Positions 39,738 to 51,936 of a stretch of DNA of 64,000 nucleotides are shown piece by piece (position 1 is the first letter of the stretch; each line of letters starts with the position of its first letter). This stretch comes from Corynebacterium cystitidis. GTDB lineage: Bacteria; Actinomycetota; Actinomycetes; Mycobacteriales; Mycobacteriaceae. Under the pieces are notes generated by a model, which saw only the letters and a program-made list of their open reading frames with translations, was not told the DNA's origin and did no database searches. Where the stretch lies: NCBI RefSeq assembly GCF_900187295.1, contig NZ_LT906473.1:1426001-1490000 (forward strand). Reading direction: 5' to 3'. Both the position numbers and the translations under genes were made by a program.

Positions 39738-40247
39738 CCGCAGGACGCCTGCAATGCAGGTGGGTTTCGCTTATCGACGATTACCCCTGCCAAACCTTTA
39801 CCTATTAGTTGGCCGGGGGCACTCCCCCTTCTCACGCCCTGACAGCTTGCCGCGTCCGTTAGCCTTAGACGCATGGCAAAAGTTATCGAGGTCGCCGGTG
39901 CCGTGTTCGTCCGCGGCAACACGGTGTTTGCGGCCCAGCGCGGCGAGGGTAAAAACATGGCTGGCATGTGGGAATTCCCCGGCGGCAAGATCGAGCCTGG
40001 TGAGACCCCCAAGCAGGCGCTCGCCCGCGAGATCCGCGAGGAACTTCTCGTTGAGGCGACCGCCGGAAAGCACATCACCACCACTGCTTATGAGTACGAC
40101 TTCGGCACAGTCAACCTCGCCACATACTTTTGCACGCTTGCCGACGACGCCTCCCCGACTCTCACTGAGCACCAAGACGCTCGCTGGGTGCCTGTCGACG
40201 AACTCGACCAGCTCGACTGGGCACCGGCCGATATACCCACAGTTCAG
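39738..40247 (+). repeat. Long direct repeat, copy A (mutT locus)
   Basis: About 510 bases, starting ccgcaggacgc and ending in the last codons of mutT, recur at 43175-43683 with only scattered substitutions and one indel. The offset is 3436-3437 bases. The two copies flank an R-M gene pair and a transposase remnant. Confidence 0.95.
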
Positions 40248-40509: not shown

Positions 40510-40534
40510 ATTTGGAACAAATGTTCTATAATGG
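40510..40534 (+). promoter_or_regulatory. SOS-box-like palindrome fused to a -10 element (NgoMIV-type methyltransferase promoter)
   Basis: GAACAAATGTTC (40515-40526) is directly followed by TATAAT (40527-40532). The 25-bp segment is identical at 22 positions to the one upstream of the second R-M operon (47874-47898, minus). The palindrome resembles the C. glutamicum LexA box TCGAAMAnnTGTTCGA. There is no recognisable -35. Confidence 0.75.
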
Positions 40535-40611
40535 GCGTTCGATGTCGCCTTATCAACTAGTGTTTTTTAACAACGCGAAGTACATTAGGAATTCACCAAA
40601 GGAGCTTTGTA

Positions 40612-41709
40612 GTGGATAGCAGAAAATCGTTATCGGGCTTAGCTGAGAACAATGCGGGCAACCCCAGTGCAGCCTCTTTGCCCTCATTGACTTCCATTGA
40701 AATCTGCGCAGGTGCCGGTGGGCAAGCTCTCGGCCTGGAGCGCGCCGGATTTGATCATGCAGCGGTTGTGGAAATCGAGCCCTGGGCCTGCGAAACTCTA
40801 CGCTTAAACCGTGGCATCGATAGTGGTTCAGAAGTGCAGTGGCCGGTCTACGAGATGGACGTACATGACTTCGACGGCACCCCGTGGAGCGGAAAGATCG
40901 ATCTTTTGGCTGGCGGTATTCCGTGTCCCCCGTTTTCCATTGCAGGAAAGCAACTAGGCGCAGACGATGAAAGAGATCTGTTCCCTGAGGCACTGCGCCT
41001 TGTAGAAGAGATCGACCCGCCCTCTGTCCTGCTTGAGAATGTTAAAGGCCTAGGGCAGAAAAGATTCGATTCTTATCGGGCGCAGATTATTCAGCGCTTA
41101 AATAACTTGGGCTACTCAGTTTTTTGGGATCTTTTCCAAGCTGCAGATTTTGGTGTACCGCAATTAAGGCCGCGCTTTATCCTCGTCGCTTTAAAAACTG
41201 AGTACGAAGAATATTTTGCCTGGCCCAAACAACAGGTAGAACAGGTGCCGGTTGGTCAAGCACTGCATCATCTCATGGCTGAAAACGGTTGGCCAGGTGC
41301 AGACCAGTGGGCGAAGCAGGCTGACACGGTTGCCCCGACCCTAGTTGGTGGATCGAAGAAGCATGGCGGGCCAGATGTGGGCCCTACCCGGGCGCGGGAA
41401 GCATGGCGCAAACTTGGAGTGAGGGGCTCGTCGATCGCAGAGGAAGCACCAGGGCCCGACTTCCCCGTCAATGACCCGGGTAACTTGCCACGGCTAACGG
41501 TGGCGATGGGAGGAGTCGTCCAAGGTTTCCCGGAAGATTGGATTTGGGCGGGTGGAAAAACTGCCCAGTGGCGCCAGGTTGGCAACGCTTTTCCTCCGCA
41601 AGTTGCAGAGGCAATAGGCCGTGCTATTGCTTCAGCATTAGCAAAGCATCCTTTAGCGAGTGGAGAGGAACCCGCTACCCCTGCCCAGCCTGTCCTGGAG
41701 GTTGTCTAA
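40612..41709 (+). CDS. DNA (cytosine-5-)-methyltransferase, NgoMIV-type
   Basis: A 365-residue C5 methyltransferase. Motif I is EICAGAGGQALGLERAG (~29-45), the catalytic Cys is in GGIPCPPFS (~101-109), motif VI is LLENVKG, motif VIII contains QLRPRFILVAL, and motif X is WRQVGNAFPPQVAEAIG. The GTG start has AAAGGAG upstream. The NgoMIV-like endonuclease follows after 3 bp, so the methylated site is probably within GCCGGC; this is inference from the partner. The leader is ~73 bases downstream of an SOS-like promoter element. Confidence 0.92.
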   Translation: MDSRKSLSGLAENNAGNPSAASLPSLTSIEICAGAGGQALGLERAGFDHAAVVEIEPWACETLRLNRGIDSGSEVQWPVYEMDVHDFDGTPWSGKIDLLAGGIPCPPFSIAGKQLGADDERDLFPEALRLVEEIDPPSVLLENVKGLGQKRFDSYRAQIIQRLNNLGYSVFWDLFQAADFGVPQLRPRFILVALKTEYEEYFAWPKQQVEQVPVGQALHHLMAENGWPGADQWAKQADTVAPTLVGGSKKHGGPDVGPTRAREAWRKLGVRGSSIAEEAPGPDFPVNDPGNLPRLTVAMGGVVQGFPEDWIWAGGKTAQWRQVGNAFPPQVAEAIGRAIASALAKHPLASGEEPATPAQPVLEVV

Positions 41710-41712
41710 GCA

Positions 41713-42603
41713 ATGGCTGCTGGAATCATCACTGAGGCTCGTCAACGCTTTCATCAAAGTTTGATTGATAATGGAACGTTAGCGTTCACATCTACCGGGA
41801 AGCATGGCAAGGTCGCCTCCAATGCTGACAAAAGCCAGCGGCAATCGGTAGAGATCGCAGAACATCTAGGCAACCAGCTCGGAGTCCAGGATGCGGATAA
41901 GCTCACAGGACAAACACAAGGCAAAAACTTCGAAGAGGCAGTGGAAAAGTTTTTGGCCCAGGTTTTAGAACATGTTGGCCATCTGCGCCCCGGCACCTGG
42001 CATGTAGTAAATGTCGGTGGGTCTCGTTCCATCGATCACCTAGCTAATTTCGAGCCCTACCGCCACCTGGCACAGTTGGAAGAAGCGATCGAGAAAACGC
42101 CTGAGCTATTATCTGTACTGGGTAACTCGTACGCGATTTCGCCTGATCTTCTGGTCACCCTTGATGCTTTTAGCGACGAGCAGCTCAATGCGGTAACCAC
42201 TTTAGTGGATAAGGATAATTCGCATTTCTGCCCGATCCGTGCGATCAATCACCCGAATAGCTTGACGACGACAGCTTTTGTTCATGCGGTCATTTCCTGC
42301 AAGTGGACAATGCGCAGTGACCGTTCTCAGAATACCCGGTCGGAAACTCTCAATTTGATCCGCAACCGCAAAGGGCGGGCACCCCACATGGTCGCGGTCA
42401 CCGCCGAACCTACCCCCAGCCGAATTTCCTCATTAGCCCTGGGAACTGGTGATATCGATATGGTCTACCACTTCGCACTCGACGAGCTCATCGTCGCAGT
42501 CACCGCGTGCGGGGACCGCAAAGCCACCGAGCTGCTTAAGACATTAGTGAACGGCAACCGGCTGCGAGATATATCAGATCTTCCGCTAGATCTCCTCGTC
42601 TAA
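41713..42603 (+). CDS. Type IIF restriction endonuclease, NgoMIV family
   Basis: A 296-residue protein matching NgoMIV, a tetrameric enzyme that cuts GCCGGC. The catalytic PD occurs in SPDLLVTL (~143) and SCK in VISCKWTMRSDRSQNTRSE (~195-211). After the catalytic Lys, Arg at +4, Asp at +6, Arg at +7 and Glu at +14 reproduce NgoMIV spacing, including the residues that read GCCGGC in its structure. The same specificity is therefore likely. The ribosome site GGAGG lies inside the methyltransferase end, so the nuclease is made by coupled translation after the protective methylase. Confidence 0.9.
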   Translation: MAAGIITEARQRFHQSLIDNGTLAFTSTGKHGKVASNADKSQRQSVEIAEHLGNQLGVQDADKLTGQTQGKNFEEAVEKFLAQVLEHVGHLRPGTWHVVNVGGSRSIDHLANFEPYRHLAQLEEAIEKTPELLSVLGNSYAISPDLLVTLDAFSDEQLNAVTTLVDKDNSHFCPIRAINHPNSLTTTAFVHAVISCKWTMRSDRSQNTRSETLNLIRNRKGRAPHMVAVTAEPTPSRISSLALGTGDIDMVYHFALDELIVAVTACGDRKATELLKTLVNGNRLRDISDLPLDLLV

Positions 42604-42612
42604 GGCTTCCTT

Positions 42613-42900
42613 TTGCAACGGACCCCATACGCTGGTCTGTGTCACGTGGAGTCAGCGGTCTATATCGTTGAACGGTCGATAATGGAATACCTCGATGACC
42701 GTGAGTTCTTTTCTTTTGACGAGCTTAACGATGCTATCGCCACCCGGGTGGAATGGATTAATGATCGCAATGAGTTCCGTAAATCGACTACATCACGGCG
42801 TGAGTTGTTTGCTGAGTATGAGCGCGGGACGTTGATGGACTTGCCGAAGTATCCGTGGTCGTGGCCGTACGATTGCCCATCTCGCCACCGCTTCCTCTGA
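42613..42900 (+). pseudogene. IS21-like (IstA) transposase remnant
   Basis: The frame reads VESAVYIVERSIMEYLDD, then FFSFDELNDAIATRVEWIND, then STTSRRELFAEYERGTLMDL. This is the C-terminal part of an IstA-type integrase, downstream of its catalytic core. The catalytic domain and the last residues are missing and there is no proper start. It follows the NgoMIV-like gene within 10 bp, so it is a trace of the mobile DNA that accompanied this cassette. Confidence 0.7.
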
Positions 42901-43174
42901 TCATTTGCTTTTGTCTTTAATAATGGCGGACTTTGTTGTTCGAGGAACTTCCCGCTTACATCATCTGAGAATTCATAATTAACTCTCCCCGATCTATAGA
43001 GTCTTCGGCCCACAGGGCGCCCGACATTTAATAATTGTGTCGCTGCGTGCGAATACTTCTCTACCGAGAAAACATCTTAGCTGTTTCAAATCCACTTACC
43101 CCAACGTCCACTGACACCCATGCGTCGCACTGTAAGCGGTAATAATGCCATCACGCCGCCACCTCGACACGTTT
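42901..43174. other. Gap without a recognisable gene
   Basis: This 274-bp stretch lies between the transposase remnant and the second mutT-locus repeat. No convincing frame, terminator or promoter is visible. It is probably junction DNA of the insertion. Confidence 0.4.
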
Positions 43175-43683
43175 CCGCAGGACGCTTGCAATGCAGGTGG
43201 GTTTCGCTTATCGACGACCACCCCTGCCAAACCTTTACCTATTAGTTGACCGGGGGCACTCCCCTTCTCACGCCCTGACAGCTTGCCGCGTCCGTTAGTC
43301 TTAGACGCATGGCAAAAGTTATCGAGGTCGCCGGTGCCGTGTTCCTCCGCGGCAACACGGTGTTTGCGGCCCAGCGCGGCGAGGGCAAAAGCATGGCCGG
43401 AATGTGGGAATTCCCCGGCGGCAAAATCGAGCCTGGTGAGACCCCCAAGCAGGCGCTCGCCCGCGAGATCCGCGAGGAACTTCTCGTTGAGGCGACCGTC
43501 GGAAAGCACATCACCACCACTGCTTATGAGTACGACTTCGGCACAGTCAACCTCGCCACATACTTTTGCACGCTTGCCGACGACACCTCCCCGACTCTCA
43601 CCGAGCACCAAGACGCCCGCTGGGTGCCTGTCGACGAACTCGACCAACTGGACTGGGCGCCGGCCGACATCCCTGCGGTACAG
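43175..43683 (+). repeat. Long direct repeat, copy B (mutT locus)
   Basis: This is the second copy of the 510-bp segment at 39738-40247, starting with the same ccgcaggacgc and ending at the CAG codon shortly before the end of mutT. Beyond each end the two loci share nothing. Confidence 0.95.
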
Positions 43684-43722
43684 CTCATTACACGTTTGCC
43701 TACATACGGGATATACCCTTAA
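43309..43722 (+). CDS. mutT: MutT-like Nudix hydrolase, copy 2 with altered C-terminus
   Basis: A 137-residue protein nearly identical to copy 1 through residue ~124 (only a few substitutions: V13L, N28S, A63V, A92T), with an intact Nudix box. After IPAVQL the resident ending is replaced by ITRLPTYGIYP, read from junction DNA until a stop 26 bases before the end of the convergent Z1 helicase gene. The last helix of the fold is therefore rebuilt, and activity is uncertain. It is the distal half of a target duplication. Confidence 0.75.
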   Translation: MAKVIEVAGAVFLRGNTVFAAQRGEGKSMAGMWEFPGGKIEPGETPKQALAREIREELLVEATVGKHITTTAYEYDFGTVNLATYFCTLADDTSPTLTEHQDARWVPVDELDQLDWAPADIPAVQLITRLPTYGIYP

Positions 43723-43748
43723 AACTGTTGCCCCATCCTATTGCATTG

Positions 43749-45635
43749 TCACTCTTGAATCCTGTAGTAAACATTACCTTCCGGGAGCTTAATGTTAGGT
43801 ACCCAAATTGGATTAGATGCCCAACCAAGATTTCCTTCAATCCGGTAAAGCACAAGTACCGCCGTCGCGTTAATTGAGTCCGAAAGGGCTCTATCTTTCG
43901 GAGACAGCAAGCTGCCAGTGGCCTGACTAACCTTCCTACCTGTGCGAATCACCAGTGCAGATTGGTGACCGGGGTTCTTCTTTAAAAGGGTTAGTAATGC
44001 TGAAGTATAATTCTCGATAGGAAAATCGTCAGGATCAGTCTCGAAGTGGGAAAGAATCGAAACAAGGGTTTGAGAACTAACCCAGATGAAATTCTCACCC
44101 GCAGCTTCGAATCCTCGGAGAAGCTCATCCAACTGATCCATATTTGGTACAACGGGGTTCTCGGCAAAGTAATTCACGCCCCCGACAATTGGACGTATGA
44201 ATTCCCGATTCAAAACGGAACTTCGCGTCGGCTTAATCGAATCATCAAGTTGAACATTGATTGCGTCGAGTGTGACACCTTTATCTAACTGATTTTTGAT
44301 CGCTTCATTTCCACGGTGAACTTCATGGAAATTCTTCGCAATTCCCGCAGGCATGAAGATCCTCATGAACTCCAGACGCCTGTCGTAGCCGAACATTCTA
44401 GCGTGTTGCCATAATGTATCTGCCTGTGGTGTCTTCGTTTCACGAGAGTAGAAGACAGTTTGTAGCGCGGGAATCGTGAGCCCTCTTCCCAAGGAGTCGC
44501 CACCAACTACCACATTGCAACCAGCTTTCAGACCATCCTCAGCAATTGCAGCATTGTCCGAATTTACAATGGTAAAACCGACTTCATGGCGTTCCAAAAA
44601 TTCGAGGACTCGCACCGCTATCTCTTCATCACTCAATTCCGCATCGCTAGTTTTCTTCAAATCATCCCAAATCTGTGAAACGGATTTTCTAACTTCATCT
44701 GTGTCGAAGTTGGATAGCATAAAATCGATTTCGCGTTTTACATCAGCTTCTGCTTGAACATGATCTTCTTTGCGGCGACTTGGGTGCACCAGCATATTGC
44801 AAGCAAGTTCACCCTTAGCGAGTAGATATGCAGCGGTTACAATAAATGTCCGGACCGCATGAGTGAATTCTAGGGACTCAGCGCTTTCCGTACTCCCAAC
44901 TGCTCGAACGAAAGGATTCGGCAAACGATCAAAAAGTTGAGCACCCCCAATGTAGCCTTTACCAGGGCTAAAGGAGAGATAGTAATCCGGGCGCCACTCG
45001 TCAATCGCAGCTTGAAGCAAAATCGATTGTGGGGTGCCTGTTACCTGGAGATATATACATGCGGGAGATAGGTTCCTAATCTCAGTTAATTTTTCGTTTA
45101 CCGGAGTGATACCACCCTGGTTGACTTTCGCGTTGAGACTACCGGCATCAGCCTCGTCATCCACGATAAGCATCGGTTTGCCGTGGAGTGCATCTGTGGT
45201 GGAAAGTATCTCTTTCCACCGTTTTAGCACACTGACATTCTTGTTGAGCACGACTATATTCGGCTGGTTACGCTCTAAGAAATCCACCGAAGCTTTCGCG
45301 GTTACACGGAACCTCCGCTCGTCATCAGGCCCACACACCTGTGCAGCTGGAAAGGCAGTGAGAATTCGATCGAATGTCTGACTCACCAGTCGGGTATTGT
45401 CAGAAGTCAAAAAGAGAATCTGCTCGAACCCATTCTCGATCGCCTTACCAACTACCCCTAAAACGTGCGAAGTTTTTCCACTTTGGACATCACCGTACAT
45501 CAAGCATTGACGGTAGCTGACGAAGTCGAAGCTCTCGATGACTTCGCGTTCGAATCGTTCCGATGTCTGATTAATAGCGTCACGGTAACTTCCCTCCCCA
45601 TACTGAGACAAATACATGTCGTAGTGATTAAACAT
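43749..45635 (-). CDS. Z1-domain SF2 helicase/translocase of a CglI/NgoAVII-type R-M system (N subunit)
   Basis: A 628-residue ATPase close in size to C. glutamicum CglIIR and N.NgoAVII. The SF2 core has Walker A YGDVQSGKTSH (~47-57), DDEAD in LIVDDEADAG, VTGTPQS, and a motif VI-like QHARMFGYDRR following GGDSLGRGLTIP. A Z1 domain and a C-terminal partner-binding region follow. In this R-M class the helicase couples ATP hydrolysis to cleavage by the PLD nuclease. It is the last gene of a three-gene operon with a 15-bp gap to the nuclease. Confidence 0.88.
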   Translation of the reverse strand: MFNHYDMYLSQYGEGSYRDAINQTSERFEREVIESFDFVSYRQCLMYGDVQSGKTSHVLGVVGKAIENGFEQILFLTSDNTRLVSQTFDRILTAFPAAQVCGPDDERRFRVTAKASVDFLERNQPNIVVLNKNVSVLKRWKEILSTTDALHGKPMLIVDDEADAGSLNAKVNQGGITPVNEKLTEIRNLSPACIYLQVTGTPQSILLQAAIDEWRPDYYLSFSPGKGYIGGAQLFDRLPNPFVRAVGSTESAESLEFTHAVRTFIVTAAYLLAKGELACNMLVHPSRRKEDHVQAEADVKREIDFMLSNFDTDEVRKSVSQIWDDLKKTSDAELSDEEIAVRVLEFLERHEVGFTIVNSDNAAIAEDGLKAGCNVVVGGDSLGRGLTIPALQTVFYSRETKTPQADTLWQHARMFGYDRRLEFMRIFMPAGIAKNFHEVHRGNEAIKNQLDKGVTLDAINVQLDDSIKPTRSSVLNREFIRPIVGGVNYFAENPVVPNMDQLDELLRGFEAAGENFIWVSSQTLVSILSHFETDPDDFPIENYTSALLTLLKKNPGHQSALVIRTGRKVSQATGSLLSPKDRALSDSINATAVLVLYRIEGNLGWASNPIWVPNIKLPEGNVYYRIQE

Positions 45636-45650
45636 GACTCTTCCCTTGAA

Positions 45651-46700
45651 TTATTTGTTCGGATTACCGTCGGCCCTAAAATCGAGGATCCATCGATTTG
45701 TTTCTTCGAAATAGTACAGGCCTAGAGTGTCGCGTCCATACGAGCGAAGGATTTCATCAGTCACCATCTGCCCTGGCGCTAACAGTTCTTCAGACTCTAG
45801 CCATCCTTTAATATAGCTACCCAAAGTCGAGAGCGACTTTGCAGAGCGGAAGTTCTTTCGATTAGCGCCACTAATTTTGCATTCGAAGGAAAAACCATCA
45901 TGAGTCCACACTGTGAATACTTTTCCAGCGGCTGGATATCCCGGTTGAGAGGTTATGTCCTTCGCAACAATGATTTCGACTTCGTACCACGGACGTGGAA
46001 GCTCACGTCCAGTCTTCTTATTCACACGCCCCTTACCGAAAAACACATTTAGGTTGCTTTTCGTCTCTGTTTTCAAAGGCAACTCAAACTGATATGTTGG
46101 CTGCACATCACTAATTAGTTCCGGTGGTGGGGCTTGGCCAGTAGGCGTTGCATCATCCATCCCCTCGAGAGGCGATGGTGATTGTTTGAGGGAAAAGGAA
46201 GCTACCTCATCGAGATTGGTACCGAGCGGGAAGATCCGCTCCTTAAGGTACGCGACAAGTTCCTCGAGATCATCATCGATAACAATGCCGGTCTCGAAGA
46301 CTTGGCGACCTTCATCCGATATCGCACTTAGGTTGCCACTTCCAATATAGGCAGATCTCACTTTTCCGCCGGACCAGAACACGTAGACTTTTCCGTGATA
46401 ACGGATACTCTCGGTTATTAGAACTTGACCGGTCCCCCTCTGCTTAAGTTCGCTATGGAGATCCCGAACTGCCTTAAGTTGCGGACGAGTAAAACCATCC
46501 AGGTACTGCATACCGATAAGAAGCTTCAGAGAGACAGTTGGATTCCTACGCAGATACTCTCTCAGCCTTGCAATCGAAGCAGTATCGATGTACCCAACGG
46601 CGATTTCGATTTTTTCAGATTTGTCTGCTTCATTCCAAAAAACTTTTCGGAACGTTCGATTTTTGTCCTTGGGATGGCTCGAATCGAAAACTAAAGTCAT
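45651..46700 (-). CDS. PLD-family restriction endonuclease with B3-like DNA-binding domain (R subunit, CglI/NgoAVII-type)
   Basis: A 349-residue nuclease. The N-terminal phospholipase-D domain has the HxK motif RYHGKVYVFWSGG with downstream YIGSGNLS (~98-125), one active site per chain as in R.NgoAVII and BfiI-like enzymes, which dimerise. A Pro-rich linker (~185-200) leads to a C-terminal B3-like domain (~205-349, with RPWYEVEIIVAKD and FSFECKISGANRKNF) that reads the DNA site. The described CglI/NgoAVII site is GCSGC/GCCGC-like; the exact specificity here is inferred. It is 2 bp downstream of the methyltransferase. Confidence 0.87.
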   Translation of the reverse strand: MTLVFDSSHPKDKNRTFRKVFWNEADKSEKIEIAVGYIDTASIARLREYLRRNPTVSLKLLIGMQYLDGFTRPQLKAVRDLHSELKQRGTGQVLITESIRYHGKVYVFWSGGKVRSAYIGSGNLSAISDEGRQVFETGIVIDDDLEELVAYLKERIFPLGTNLDEVASFSLKQSPSPLEGMDDATPTGQAPPPELISDVQPTYQFELPLKTETKSNLNVFFGKGRVNKKTGRELPRPWYEVEIIVAKDITSQPGYPAAGKVFTVWTHDGFSFECKISGANRKNFRSAKSLSTLGSYIKGWLESEELLAPGQMVTDEILRSYGRDTLGLYYFEETNRWILDFRADGNPNK

Positions 46701-46702
46701 CG

Positions 46703-47794
46703 TTAGTTCACCTCAGCTTCAGCTTCTTTGAGTCGCTGTTCAATCGACATGGATCGTAACCTTGCGATTTCCTCTGTAAGGTCTTGACGTTCATACTCTC
46801 CGGTAAACACCGTCATTAACCGATTTGCAAGTGCTCTTACACCTTGAGGCGGAACAGCATTACCAATTTGGCGACGTACCTCAGTCGTCGATCCCACAAA
46901 TTCAAAAGAATCGGGGAATGACTGCAGTCTGGCGCGCTCCCGATTGGTGAGAGCGCGATTCTCCGGATAGTGGTAGCCCCATGTACCACCGCCACCAGCG
47001 GCGATGATAGTCTTCGCGGGTTCATTGCGGTCGATCCGTCGATATACGTGGCTAATCATTCCTTTAACGTAGTAAGGACTGTCCTTAGGGATATCAGTAA
47101 AATTACCACCTTCCGGAATCAAACTGATGATTTTTTTCGTCCGGTCTAGCTGCCTCAAGTGCTCATTGTTAAATTTGACCTTTTCAACTCCCTCCAACGC
47201 CTGCCCCGCTGTGAAATAGGGTTTATCCGCCCGTGGGCCATGAGTAGGTGCAGGATGCTTAAAATTGAAACCGGTGTCGACGCGAACGCCTACAATCAGT
47301 ACTCGTTCCCTAAATTGCGGAACTCCATACTCCGCAAAGTTGTAGAGCATTGGCTTGACCAAGTAGCCTGGCTCCGTCGACTCAAGATCTTCAATGATCG
47401 TCCTAATAGCTTTGCGTTTGTTAGCCGTAAGCAGACCTTTAACGTTTTCAGCGACAAATACTTTCGGCCGTTTGGCTGCCACGAACTCTTGAAAATTCTT
47501 ATAAAGACCGCCCCTTTCCCCATCAAGACCTGGACGCTTCCAAATAATTGAAAAATCCTGACAGGGGAAACCACCGGTCACAACATCGGCATCCGGAATT
47601 GATTCATCTTCGAATGGATCGATCTCGGTAATGTCGCCGTAAACAATATGATCACCGAGATTCTTTTTGTACGTCTCTACCGCCAACTCCTGGAAGTCAT
47701 TCGCCCAAACTGTTTCAAAACCTTCCATCTCAAAGCCAAGGTCAAGCCCACCACACCCTGTAAAAGTCGAGACAACCGTTGGAGACTTAGTCAT
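46703..47794 (-). CDS. DNA (cytosine-5-)-methyltransferase of the CglI/NgoAVII-type system
   Basis: A 363-residue C5 methyltransferase, the length of C. glutamicum CglIM. Motif I is TFTGCGGLDLGFEMEGF (~10-26), the catalytic Cys is in GGFPCQDFS (~74-82), motif VI is VAENVKG, motif VIII is QFRERVLIVGV, and motif X is RRQIGNAVPPQGVRALA. The C-terminal tail is Glu/Arg-rich. It leads the M-R-N operon, the same order as cglIM-cglIR-cglIIR. Its promoter carries the same SOS-like element as the other R-M system. Confidence 0.92.
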   Translation of the reverse strand: MTKSPTVVSTFTGCGGLDLGFEMEGFETVWANDFQELAVETYKKNLGDHIVYGDITEIDPFEDESIPDADVVTGGFPCQDFSIIWKRPGLDGERGGLYKNFQEFVAAKRPKVFVAENVKGLLTANKRKAIRTIIEDLESTEPGYLVKPMLYNFAEYGVPQFRERVLIVGVRVDTGFNFKHPAPTHGPRADKPYFTAGQALEGVEKVKFNNEHLRQLDRTKKIISLIPEGGNFTDIPKDSPYYVKGMISHVYRRIDRNEPAKTIIAAGGGGTWGYHYPENRALTNRERARLQSFPDSFEFVGSTTEVRRQIGNAVPPQGVRALANRLMTVFTGEYERQDLTEEIARLRSMSIEQRLKEAEAEVN

Positions 47795-47873
47795 CCAGCA
47801 TCATTCCTTAACCTTTTCTTTTGAGGCTTACGCTTATGTGATTCAATATAACGCTCGAGTCGACACGACAATT

Positions 47874-47898
47874 CCATTATAGAACAAATGTTCTAAAT
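47874..47898 (-). promoter_or_regulatory. SOS-box-like palindrome fused to a -10 element (CglI-type methyltransferase promoter)
   Basis: On the operon strand GAACATTTGTTC is directly followed by TATAATGG (forward 47876-47893). It is the partner of the element at 40510-40534, and the spacing to the start codon (~75 bases) is also alike. The leader sequences beyond TATAATGG are unrelated. Confidence 0.75.
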
Positions 47899-51386: not shown

Positions 51387-51398
51387 GAACATTCGTTC
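51387..51398. promoter_or_regulatory. SOS-box-like palindrome upstream of an unknown gene
   Basis: GAACATTCGTTC is set in TCGAACATTCGTTCTA, which matches the C. glutamicum LexA-box consensus at all but two specified positions. It is the third GAACnnnnGTTC site of this class in the window and, as at the R-M promoters, is directly followed by TAT. It lies between a divergent MFS gene and the gene at 51415. Confidence 0.55.
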
Positions 51399-51414
51399 TA
51401 TTTGTGGCGGAGTC

Positions 51415-51936
51415 ATGTCGCACCCACGTTCTACGGTGACAAACATGAACAAGAACAATGCGCCCTACAACGCACCCCACATTCCACTACCTGCAATCAA
51501 CGATCTGCGCCAGAAACACGCCCCTATCCTCGAGGCTGCAGCGAGCATGATTCGCCACCCTCGCAGCCTGGCACGACCTGTTCCCTCTTGGCGGCCACCG
51601 ATAGTAAAATTACCGAGGCACCACGGCACTCCCAAACTCACCCTGGCAATCAGCCGGCACCGTGTAGGCCCCCGCGCAGCAGCACGCATCCAGGGATACG
51701 GAGAAACCCGCCGCCCCGCCTACCTTGTCAGCGTGCGGGTGACAGACCCGACCGGAGCAAACGTTGATCATACAGCGGCCGAAGCATGGATTCGTGCGCT
51801 GCTGCCAGACAACGTTGATGGCAAAGTACACGAAGTCGACGCCCACAAGGCGGTTACCTACGTGTGGATCGTGGACGGCACGTTTACCCTGCTGGAATCG
51901 CCCGCCTCACTTTTCGAGGGGATGGCGGCTGCCTAA
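51415..51936 (+). CDS. Unrecognised protein, possibly SOS-regulated
   Basis: A 173-residue protein with no recognised domain. The first ~60 residues are Pro/His/Arg-rich and probably disordered. The rest looks like an alpha/beta domain (PAYLVSVRVTD, AAEAWIRALLP, KAVTYVWIVDGTFTLLES). The first ATG is used, with GGCGGAG just upstream; an ATG ten codons on is possible. A LexA-like box 17 bases before the start suggests DNA-damage induction. It converges on the acidic-protein gene with a 12-bp gap. Confidence 0.6.
   Translation: MSHPRSTVTNMNKNNAPYNAPHIPLPAINDLRQKHAPILEAAASMIRHPRSLARPVPSWRPPIVKLPRHHGTPKLTLAISRHRVGPRAAARIQGYGETRRPAYLVSVRVTDPTGANVDHTAAEAWIRALLPDNVDGKVHEVDAHKAVTYVWIVDGTFTLLESPASLFEGMAAA

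Follow-up and report, generated by a model that had tools for sequence, protein, structure and literature searches.

The window analysed here comprises positions 1426001-1490000 (64,000 nucleotides) of the 3.01-Mb single-contig genome of Corynebacterium cystitidis, and it contains two adjoining restriction-modification (R-M) systems whose promoters are the subject of this report. An NgoMIV-type pair spans 40612-42603 on the plus strand, with a gap of 3 bp between methyltransferase gene M1 and endonuclease gene R1, and a CglI-type operon spans 47794-43749 on the minus strand, with its methyltransferase gene, M2, first. The genes are the following.

40612..41709, plus strand: C5 methyltransferase M1, NgoMIV/NaeI type (Pfam PF00145, E 1.1e-62)
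41713..42603, plus strand: NgoMIV-type restriction endonuclease R1 (Pfam PF09015, E 6.6e-108)
46703..47794, minus strand: C5 methyltransferase M2, CglI type (Pfam PF00145, E 8.3e-75)
45651..46700, minus strand: PLD/B3 restriction endonuclease R2, NgoFVII/NgoAVII family (Pfam PF09565 and PF20731)
43749..45635, minus strand: further gene of the CglI-type operon (Pfam PF10593; gene order kept in five relatives)

The first system was assigned to the NgoMIV type by the presence of both a C5 methyltransferase and an NgoMIV-family endonuclease in Pfam searches. M1 was 53-69% identical to the M genes at 13 of the 14 other NgoMIV loci of the genus (the fourteenth, L278, had no M gene in its stretch and was dropped), and M2 was 71-81% identical to the M genes of five CglI-type operons. 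Neither R-M system is unusual in itself, both belonging to known families. M1 and M2 are distantly related, the relatives of one matching the other at ~25-32%.

Both methyltransferase promoters contain the 25-mer ATTTnGAACAnnTGTTCTATAATGG, at 40510-40534 (+) and 47874-47898 (-). An earlier sequence-only reading had described this common core, with a palindrome abutting the -10 and unrelated leaders, and these points were confirmed: the letters were as first written, the box lies flush with TATAAT at each promoter, and the upstream regions of M1 and M2 gave no alignment beyond the 25 bp. That reading had missed the second half of the promoter, an element of the RecA-independent promoter (RecA-NDp)/PafBC type 29 nt from the start of the box. 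At both M promoters RTGTC starts at exactly this distance, counted from the first base of the 16-mer box, with N11-TAnnnT after it. The dual-promoter sequences are GAACAAATGTTCTATAATGGGCGTTCGATGTCGCCTTATCAACTAGTGT for M1, GAACATTTGTTCTATAATGGAATTGTCGTGTCGACTCGAGCGTTATATT for M2 and GAACAGTTGTGCGTGTATGTTCGAAGCTGTGTCGGCAACATGTTTTAAGGT for recA of the same genome, and the elements before M1 and M2 are located as follows.

40513..40528, plus strand: LexA-type box TGGAACAAATGTTCTA, NgoMIV-type operon (score 9.2 with a recA-trained matrix)
40527..40532, plus strand: -10 TATAAT flush with this box, by sequence; predicted LexA-controlled promoter
40543..40546, plus strand: TGTC, -26-type element, RecA-NDp/PafBC type by sequence
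40558..40563, plus strand: second -10 TAGTGT (TAnnnT), 11 nt past TGTC
47880..47895, minus strand: LexA-type box TAGAACATTTGTTCTA, CglI-type operon (score 9.3 with the same matrix)
47876..47881, minus strand: -10 TATAAT flush with this box, by sequence
47862..47865, minus strand: TGTC, -26-type element, at the same offset as in the NgoMIV-type operon
47845..47850, minus strand: second -10 TATATT (TAnnnT), 11 nt past TGTC

Training of the matrix used 20 distinct sites, all of them from genus recA promoters, and the controls were 262 genes taken from 19 Corynebacterium stretches of 20 kb each. Scores of 9 or more were obtained for 7 of the 262 control genes, recA itself among them, and the scores of the two boxes bear out the proposed likeness to the corynebacterial LexA box. 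Most of 30 genus recA promoters have the box followed within ~2 nt by a TAnnnT -10. A LexA DNA-binding family was found in 41 of 41 genus genomes searched, and lexA and recA are both present in this genome. Judged by their letters, the two promoters carry the features of the LexA regulon that were tested: the box, its overlap or abutment with the promoter core, and lexA together with recA in the genome.

We then compared relatives of M1. NgoMIV endonucleases were found in 15 of 242 genus genomes, and the M gene was obtained from 14, including this one. Among the 30 loci listed by a PF00145 search of 151 genus genomes, 16 were further M1-like methyltransferases; the next open reading frame (ORF), scanned for eight of these 16, encoded a NaeI endonuclease in seven cases and a transporter in one. 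Together with a NaeI-type neighbour in genome G214, these made 31 upstream regions (27 similarity clusters), including L363 despite its short upstream stretch. The median LexA-matrix score was 9.0 in these 31 regions and 1.2 in the 262 controls (Mann-Whitney p 1.4e-10), the former being anchored at M1 residue 27 and the latter at the first ATG/GTG, so that the intervals compared are not quite alike. Chance origin of the box was considered and rejected: GAACANNTGTTC occurred exactly in 2 of 15 NgoMIV/NaeI upstream regions and with at most one mismatch in 5, compared with averages of 0.003 and 0.13 in shuffled upstream regions and with 0 and 5 among the 262 control genes.

The second element, TGTC-N11/12-TAnnnT, was spotted by comparing the recA and M upstream regions. 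It is present in 17 of 30 recA promoters, including that of this genome, at 28-41 nt from the start of the box (13 at 28-31 nt and 4 at 38-41 nt). It is also present in 15 of the 31 M1-family regions, compared with 7 of the 262 controls (p 6e-12). The published RecA-independent promoter motif is tTGTCRgtg-8nt-TannnT, at which ClgR has also been reported (PMC5656591), and PafBC is described as the activator of this promoter, with a -26 element (PMC11804915, PMC8223512). Two tandem ORFs with WYL domains, likely the PafB and PafC pair by their sequence, lie a long way from the R-M genes, at chromosome positions 1133402-1134512.

Box and second element together, with at most 3 mismatches allowed in the box, were found in 12 of the 31 M1-family genes (10 clusters) and in 2 of the 262 controls, whose products look DUF222-like and exonuclease-like on reading. 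At least six of these 12 belong to NaeI-type systems (L326, L356, L358, L361, L372 and L373), and the 12 comprise 2 of the 14 genes beside NgoMIV endonucleases (this one and L270) vs 10 of the other 17. Among six CglI-type operons, three have the joint element: the one in the window, L282 and L283 (offsets 29, 31 and 31). L279 and L280 have a different near-palindrome, GCGGCAAATATGTGCGGC, upstream of M before a possible -10, perhaps the site of another regulator. In G214, the CglI-type operon L282, whose methyltransferase is the closest to M2 (81%), adjoins the NaeI-type system L326 (M1-like, 73%), and this pairing of GCCGGC-type and CglI systems mirrors the window. That the box is general to C5 methyltransferases was rejected, since six others (L348, L349, L352, L354, L376 and L377) had neither the joint element nor a box within one mismatch, L354 being 66% like M2.

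We searched for GAACNNNNGTNCN{15,19}TGTCN{11,12}TANNNT, with the reversed form as a control. This genome gave five matches and the reversed pattern none; the five lie before recA, a PD-(D/E)XK nuclease gene, M1, M2 and a gene at 51445. At least one match was found in 109 of 231 genus genomes, which gave ~200 matches in total vs 18 for the reversed pattern (hand counts from a per-genome table). Pfam was used to scan 34 of the downstream genes, and 35 more were judged by eye. Among the scanned genes (own five included), 22 received a Pfam name: RecA (5), DUF222 (4), HEPN_SAV_6107 (4), C5 methyltransferase (2, the window's own) and one each of UvrD, exonuclease, methyladenine glycosylase, PD-(D/E)XK nuclease, RNase H, integrase core and Cse1. 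RecA, DUF222, HEPN_SAV_6107 or DNA-repair-type enzymes account for 17 of the 22, and we take the HEPN_SAV_6107 and DUF222 genes to be damage genes. At least 7 of the 34 encode a small protein of unassigned function. The by-eye set came from 40 more stretches, 35 of which had a downstream ORF; in 4 there was none, and L432 did not show the site; all but L410 were judged by eye alone. Of these 35, 19 were clearly of the same sorts, 4 possibly so, and one was a second Cse1. On this comparison of sequences, box plus second element is a general promoter type of the genus, and the layout before M1 and M2 is that of many genus recA promoters: a LexA box flush with a -10, followed by a RecA-NDp (PafBC-type) promoter.

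Type I-E Cascade genes (Cse1, PF09481) lie behind the same dual promoter in two genomes (L386 in G018 and L410 in G142), which suggests that other immune genes may have joined the regulon. A third dual promoter lies in the window itself.

51387..51437, plus strand: joint pattern, 7 bp before the gene at 51445-51936

The 163-aa product of this gene had no Pfam match; akin 'HPRSLARP' proteins follow other joint-pattern sites (L384, L385, L390, L394, L395, L409 and others).

The box alone was less informative. A C. glutamicum consensus, TCGAAMANNTGTTCGA, searched with 3 mismatches in this genome, was useless (317 forward vs 412 reversed matches). GAACANNTGTTC has nine sites in the genome, including the two M promoters; one is within a coding region (L004) that we take to be sufB, one is close to the 5' end of a gene that fits the NCBI ImuA' model (L007), and one is between proA, identified by reading, and the PD-(D/E)XK nuclease gene (L002/L347). 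The remaining four fall at copies of a single transposase element (L001, L003, L005 and L006; DDE domain scanned in L001), in which GAACATGTGTTC lies ~85 bp upstream of the transposase gene; transposition of this element is possibly SOS-controlled. Across the public genome collection, the matches listed for an 18-mer had 110 downstream ORFs (12 further sites had none), comprising 10 DinB/ImuB-type polymerases, 4 YolD and an otherwise mixed remainder, so that the 18-mer alone is weak evidence outside the genus. The search for the 25-mer that the sequence-only reading had called for found it before both M genes, and it also precedes an unlinked gene for an HEPN_SAV_6107 protein in another species (G193).

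These results suggest that both R-M operons are driven by a dual DNA-damage promoter of the recA type, to which we give a probability of about 0.8. On the best reading both operons are part of the DNA-damage regulon, controlled by LexA and probably also by PafBC. The damage control proposed earlier gains comparative support from the recA-trained score, the recA-like placement before the -10 and the recurrence of HEPN_SAV_6107. A switch common to the two systems was also proposed; both do carry the element, but it is a promoter type of the genus and not private to them. Because the promoters are built like that of recA, it appears that the cell turns up both R-M systems when its own DNA is damaged. 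LexA on the box would repress the upstream, box-proximal promoter until single-stranded DNA appears and RecA triggers LexA cleavage, and the PafBC pair, activated by single-stranded DNA, would give RNA polymerase access to the downstream promoter. More M would be transcribed, together with the R gene that follows, and since M is first in each operon, methylation capacity would rise at once. Basal transcription would have to leak, as the chromosome would otherwise be unmethylated.

The likeliest benefit would be that methyltransferase is supplied at the time when repair synthesis produces tracts lacking methylation; more of it would be protective because the endonuclease would cut the sites left unmethylated. 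Alternatively, entry of a phage or plasmid may give the signal, and extra restriction of the incoming DNA may help. R-M systems kill cells whose methylation lags, and DNA repair is a moment when such a lag can occur. If the proposed control is right, a damage-responsive methyltransferase promoter is a direct safeguard that ties bacterial immunity to genome repair, and the joint pattern is a sequence signature for finding further immune systems under damage control.

Several observations weigh against this interpretation. The outer CG that LexA half-sites commonly have is missing from both boxes; this seems to be no bar, because the box proposed as an SOS site for C. glutamicum sigH, TGGTACATATGTTCTA, which overlaps a -10 (PMC3489674), shares its outer bases with the M1 box. 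The joint pattern is missed by 19 of the 31 M1-family genes (L363 among them), L270 is the only one of the 13 other genus NgoMIV-type M genes to have it, and the CglI-type L279, L280 and L281 lack it. The second element, as a regular expression, is absent from 13 of 30 recA promoters. Its published form is matched only in part before M1 and M2: TGTC, R and TAnnnT are present, but the spacing is 11 nt instead of 12 and gtg is missing. The genome's own recA promoter likewise lacks gtg, and both spacings are seen at joint-pattern sites of the genus. No evident damage kind could be assigned to 11 of the 35 genes judged by eye, so the pattern is enriched and not exclusive. Finally, damage would raise the endonuclease too, because M and R share one operon.

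The partial motif could mean that LexA alone acts and that TGTC...TAnnnT is fortuitous or an ordinary sigma-A promoter, as the strong LexA box without a second element at L267 and L268 would also allow. We consider this improbable, though the best placed of the alternatives. TGTC is not a normal -35, since with a hexamer at RTGTCG the spacer would be 10 bp long and a -35 needs ~17. Although the search tolerated offsets of 26-33 nt, each of the 12 joint M1-family promoters has the second element at 29 or 30 nt, and the clustering at 28-31 nt in recA promoters (13 of 17) points the same way. It also occurs on its own: 4 of 8 NgoMIV systems outside the genus carry the PafBC-like element and have no box within one mismatch. 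The copy at L322 matches the mycobacterial motif exactly (CTGTCAGTG-N8-TACGGT), and that at L325 falls within the aligned reading frame.

Still less probable is an operator belonging to the R-M systems, whereby the methyltransferase or a system-borne controller would bind GAACAnnTGTTC and regulate its own and the neighbouring promoter. Some C5 methyltransferases autoregulate, and in the genus the box tracks the M1 family at loci that are not linked, whether the endonuclease there is NgoMIV or NaeI. In spite of their distant relationship, however, M1 and M2 have the box in common, and only 26 residues precede the methylase domain of M1, so that a separate DNA-binding domain would hardly fit. 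Box and second element also occur together upstream of recA and other genes, including in genomes that gave no NgoMIV endonuclease match, and the 8 NgoMIV systems outside the genus (in two of which, L318 and L320, the methyltransferase is just ~30% like M1) have neither a box within one mismatch nor the joint element.

Direct repeats of ~500 bp, 95.8% identical, flank the NgoMIV unit at 39738-40238 and 43175-43673 and overlap the two mutT-like NUDIX genes; the unit looks as if it had been inserted with a long target duplication. These repeats and the adjoining positions of the units indicate that rearrangement happened here, yet that the shared 25-mer is a recombination relic copied between the promoters with no regulatory meaning is very unlikely, as the M1 and M2 upstream regions fail to align beyond it, an unlinked gene of another species fits it, relatives keep the layout with different spacer sequence, and a conserved plan in unrelated flanks already speaks against such copying.

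As far as our searches reach, R-M genes wired to both arms of the actinobacterial damage response, as predicted here, are new: in the titles and abstract openings of the open-licence papers found, no dual promoter of the LexA/PafBC type was reported on an R-M operon. The closest precedent is mycobacterial recA, described as having a PafBC-dependent P1 with a PafBC -26 motif and a LexA-dependent P2 (PMC11804915); several genes are stated to carry both kinds of element (PMC8223512). The promoters of the window likewise combine both kinds in one region; unlike mycobacterial recA, they drive R-M operons, have 11 nt after TGTC and lack gtg. They resemble the C. glutamicum LexA regulon in box sequence and in the overlap with a sigma-A -10, as at the putative box of sigH P4 (PMC3489674). 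CglI systems do not always carry this wiring, since the CglI-type operon of G064 (L279) is without the layout. Control of defence genes by WYL-family proteins would be shared with BrxR and its relatives in defence islands, as these are described, but the likely WYL pair here is distant from the R-M genes, unlike such local regulators. In Caulobacter, the report on VsrA and ScmA, a solitary YGCCGGCR methyltransferase, places a LexA box inside the vsrA gene, with the Vsr-like gene and not with a methyltransferase or a full R-M operon as in the window; there, as proposed here, GCCGGC methylation is linked to the SOS response (PMC12907096).

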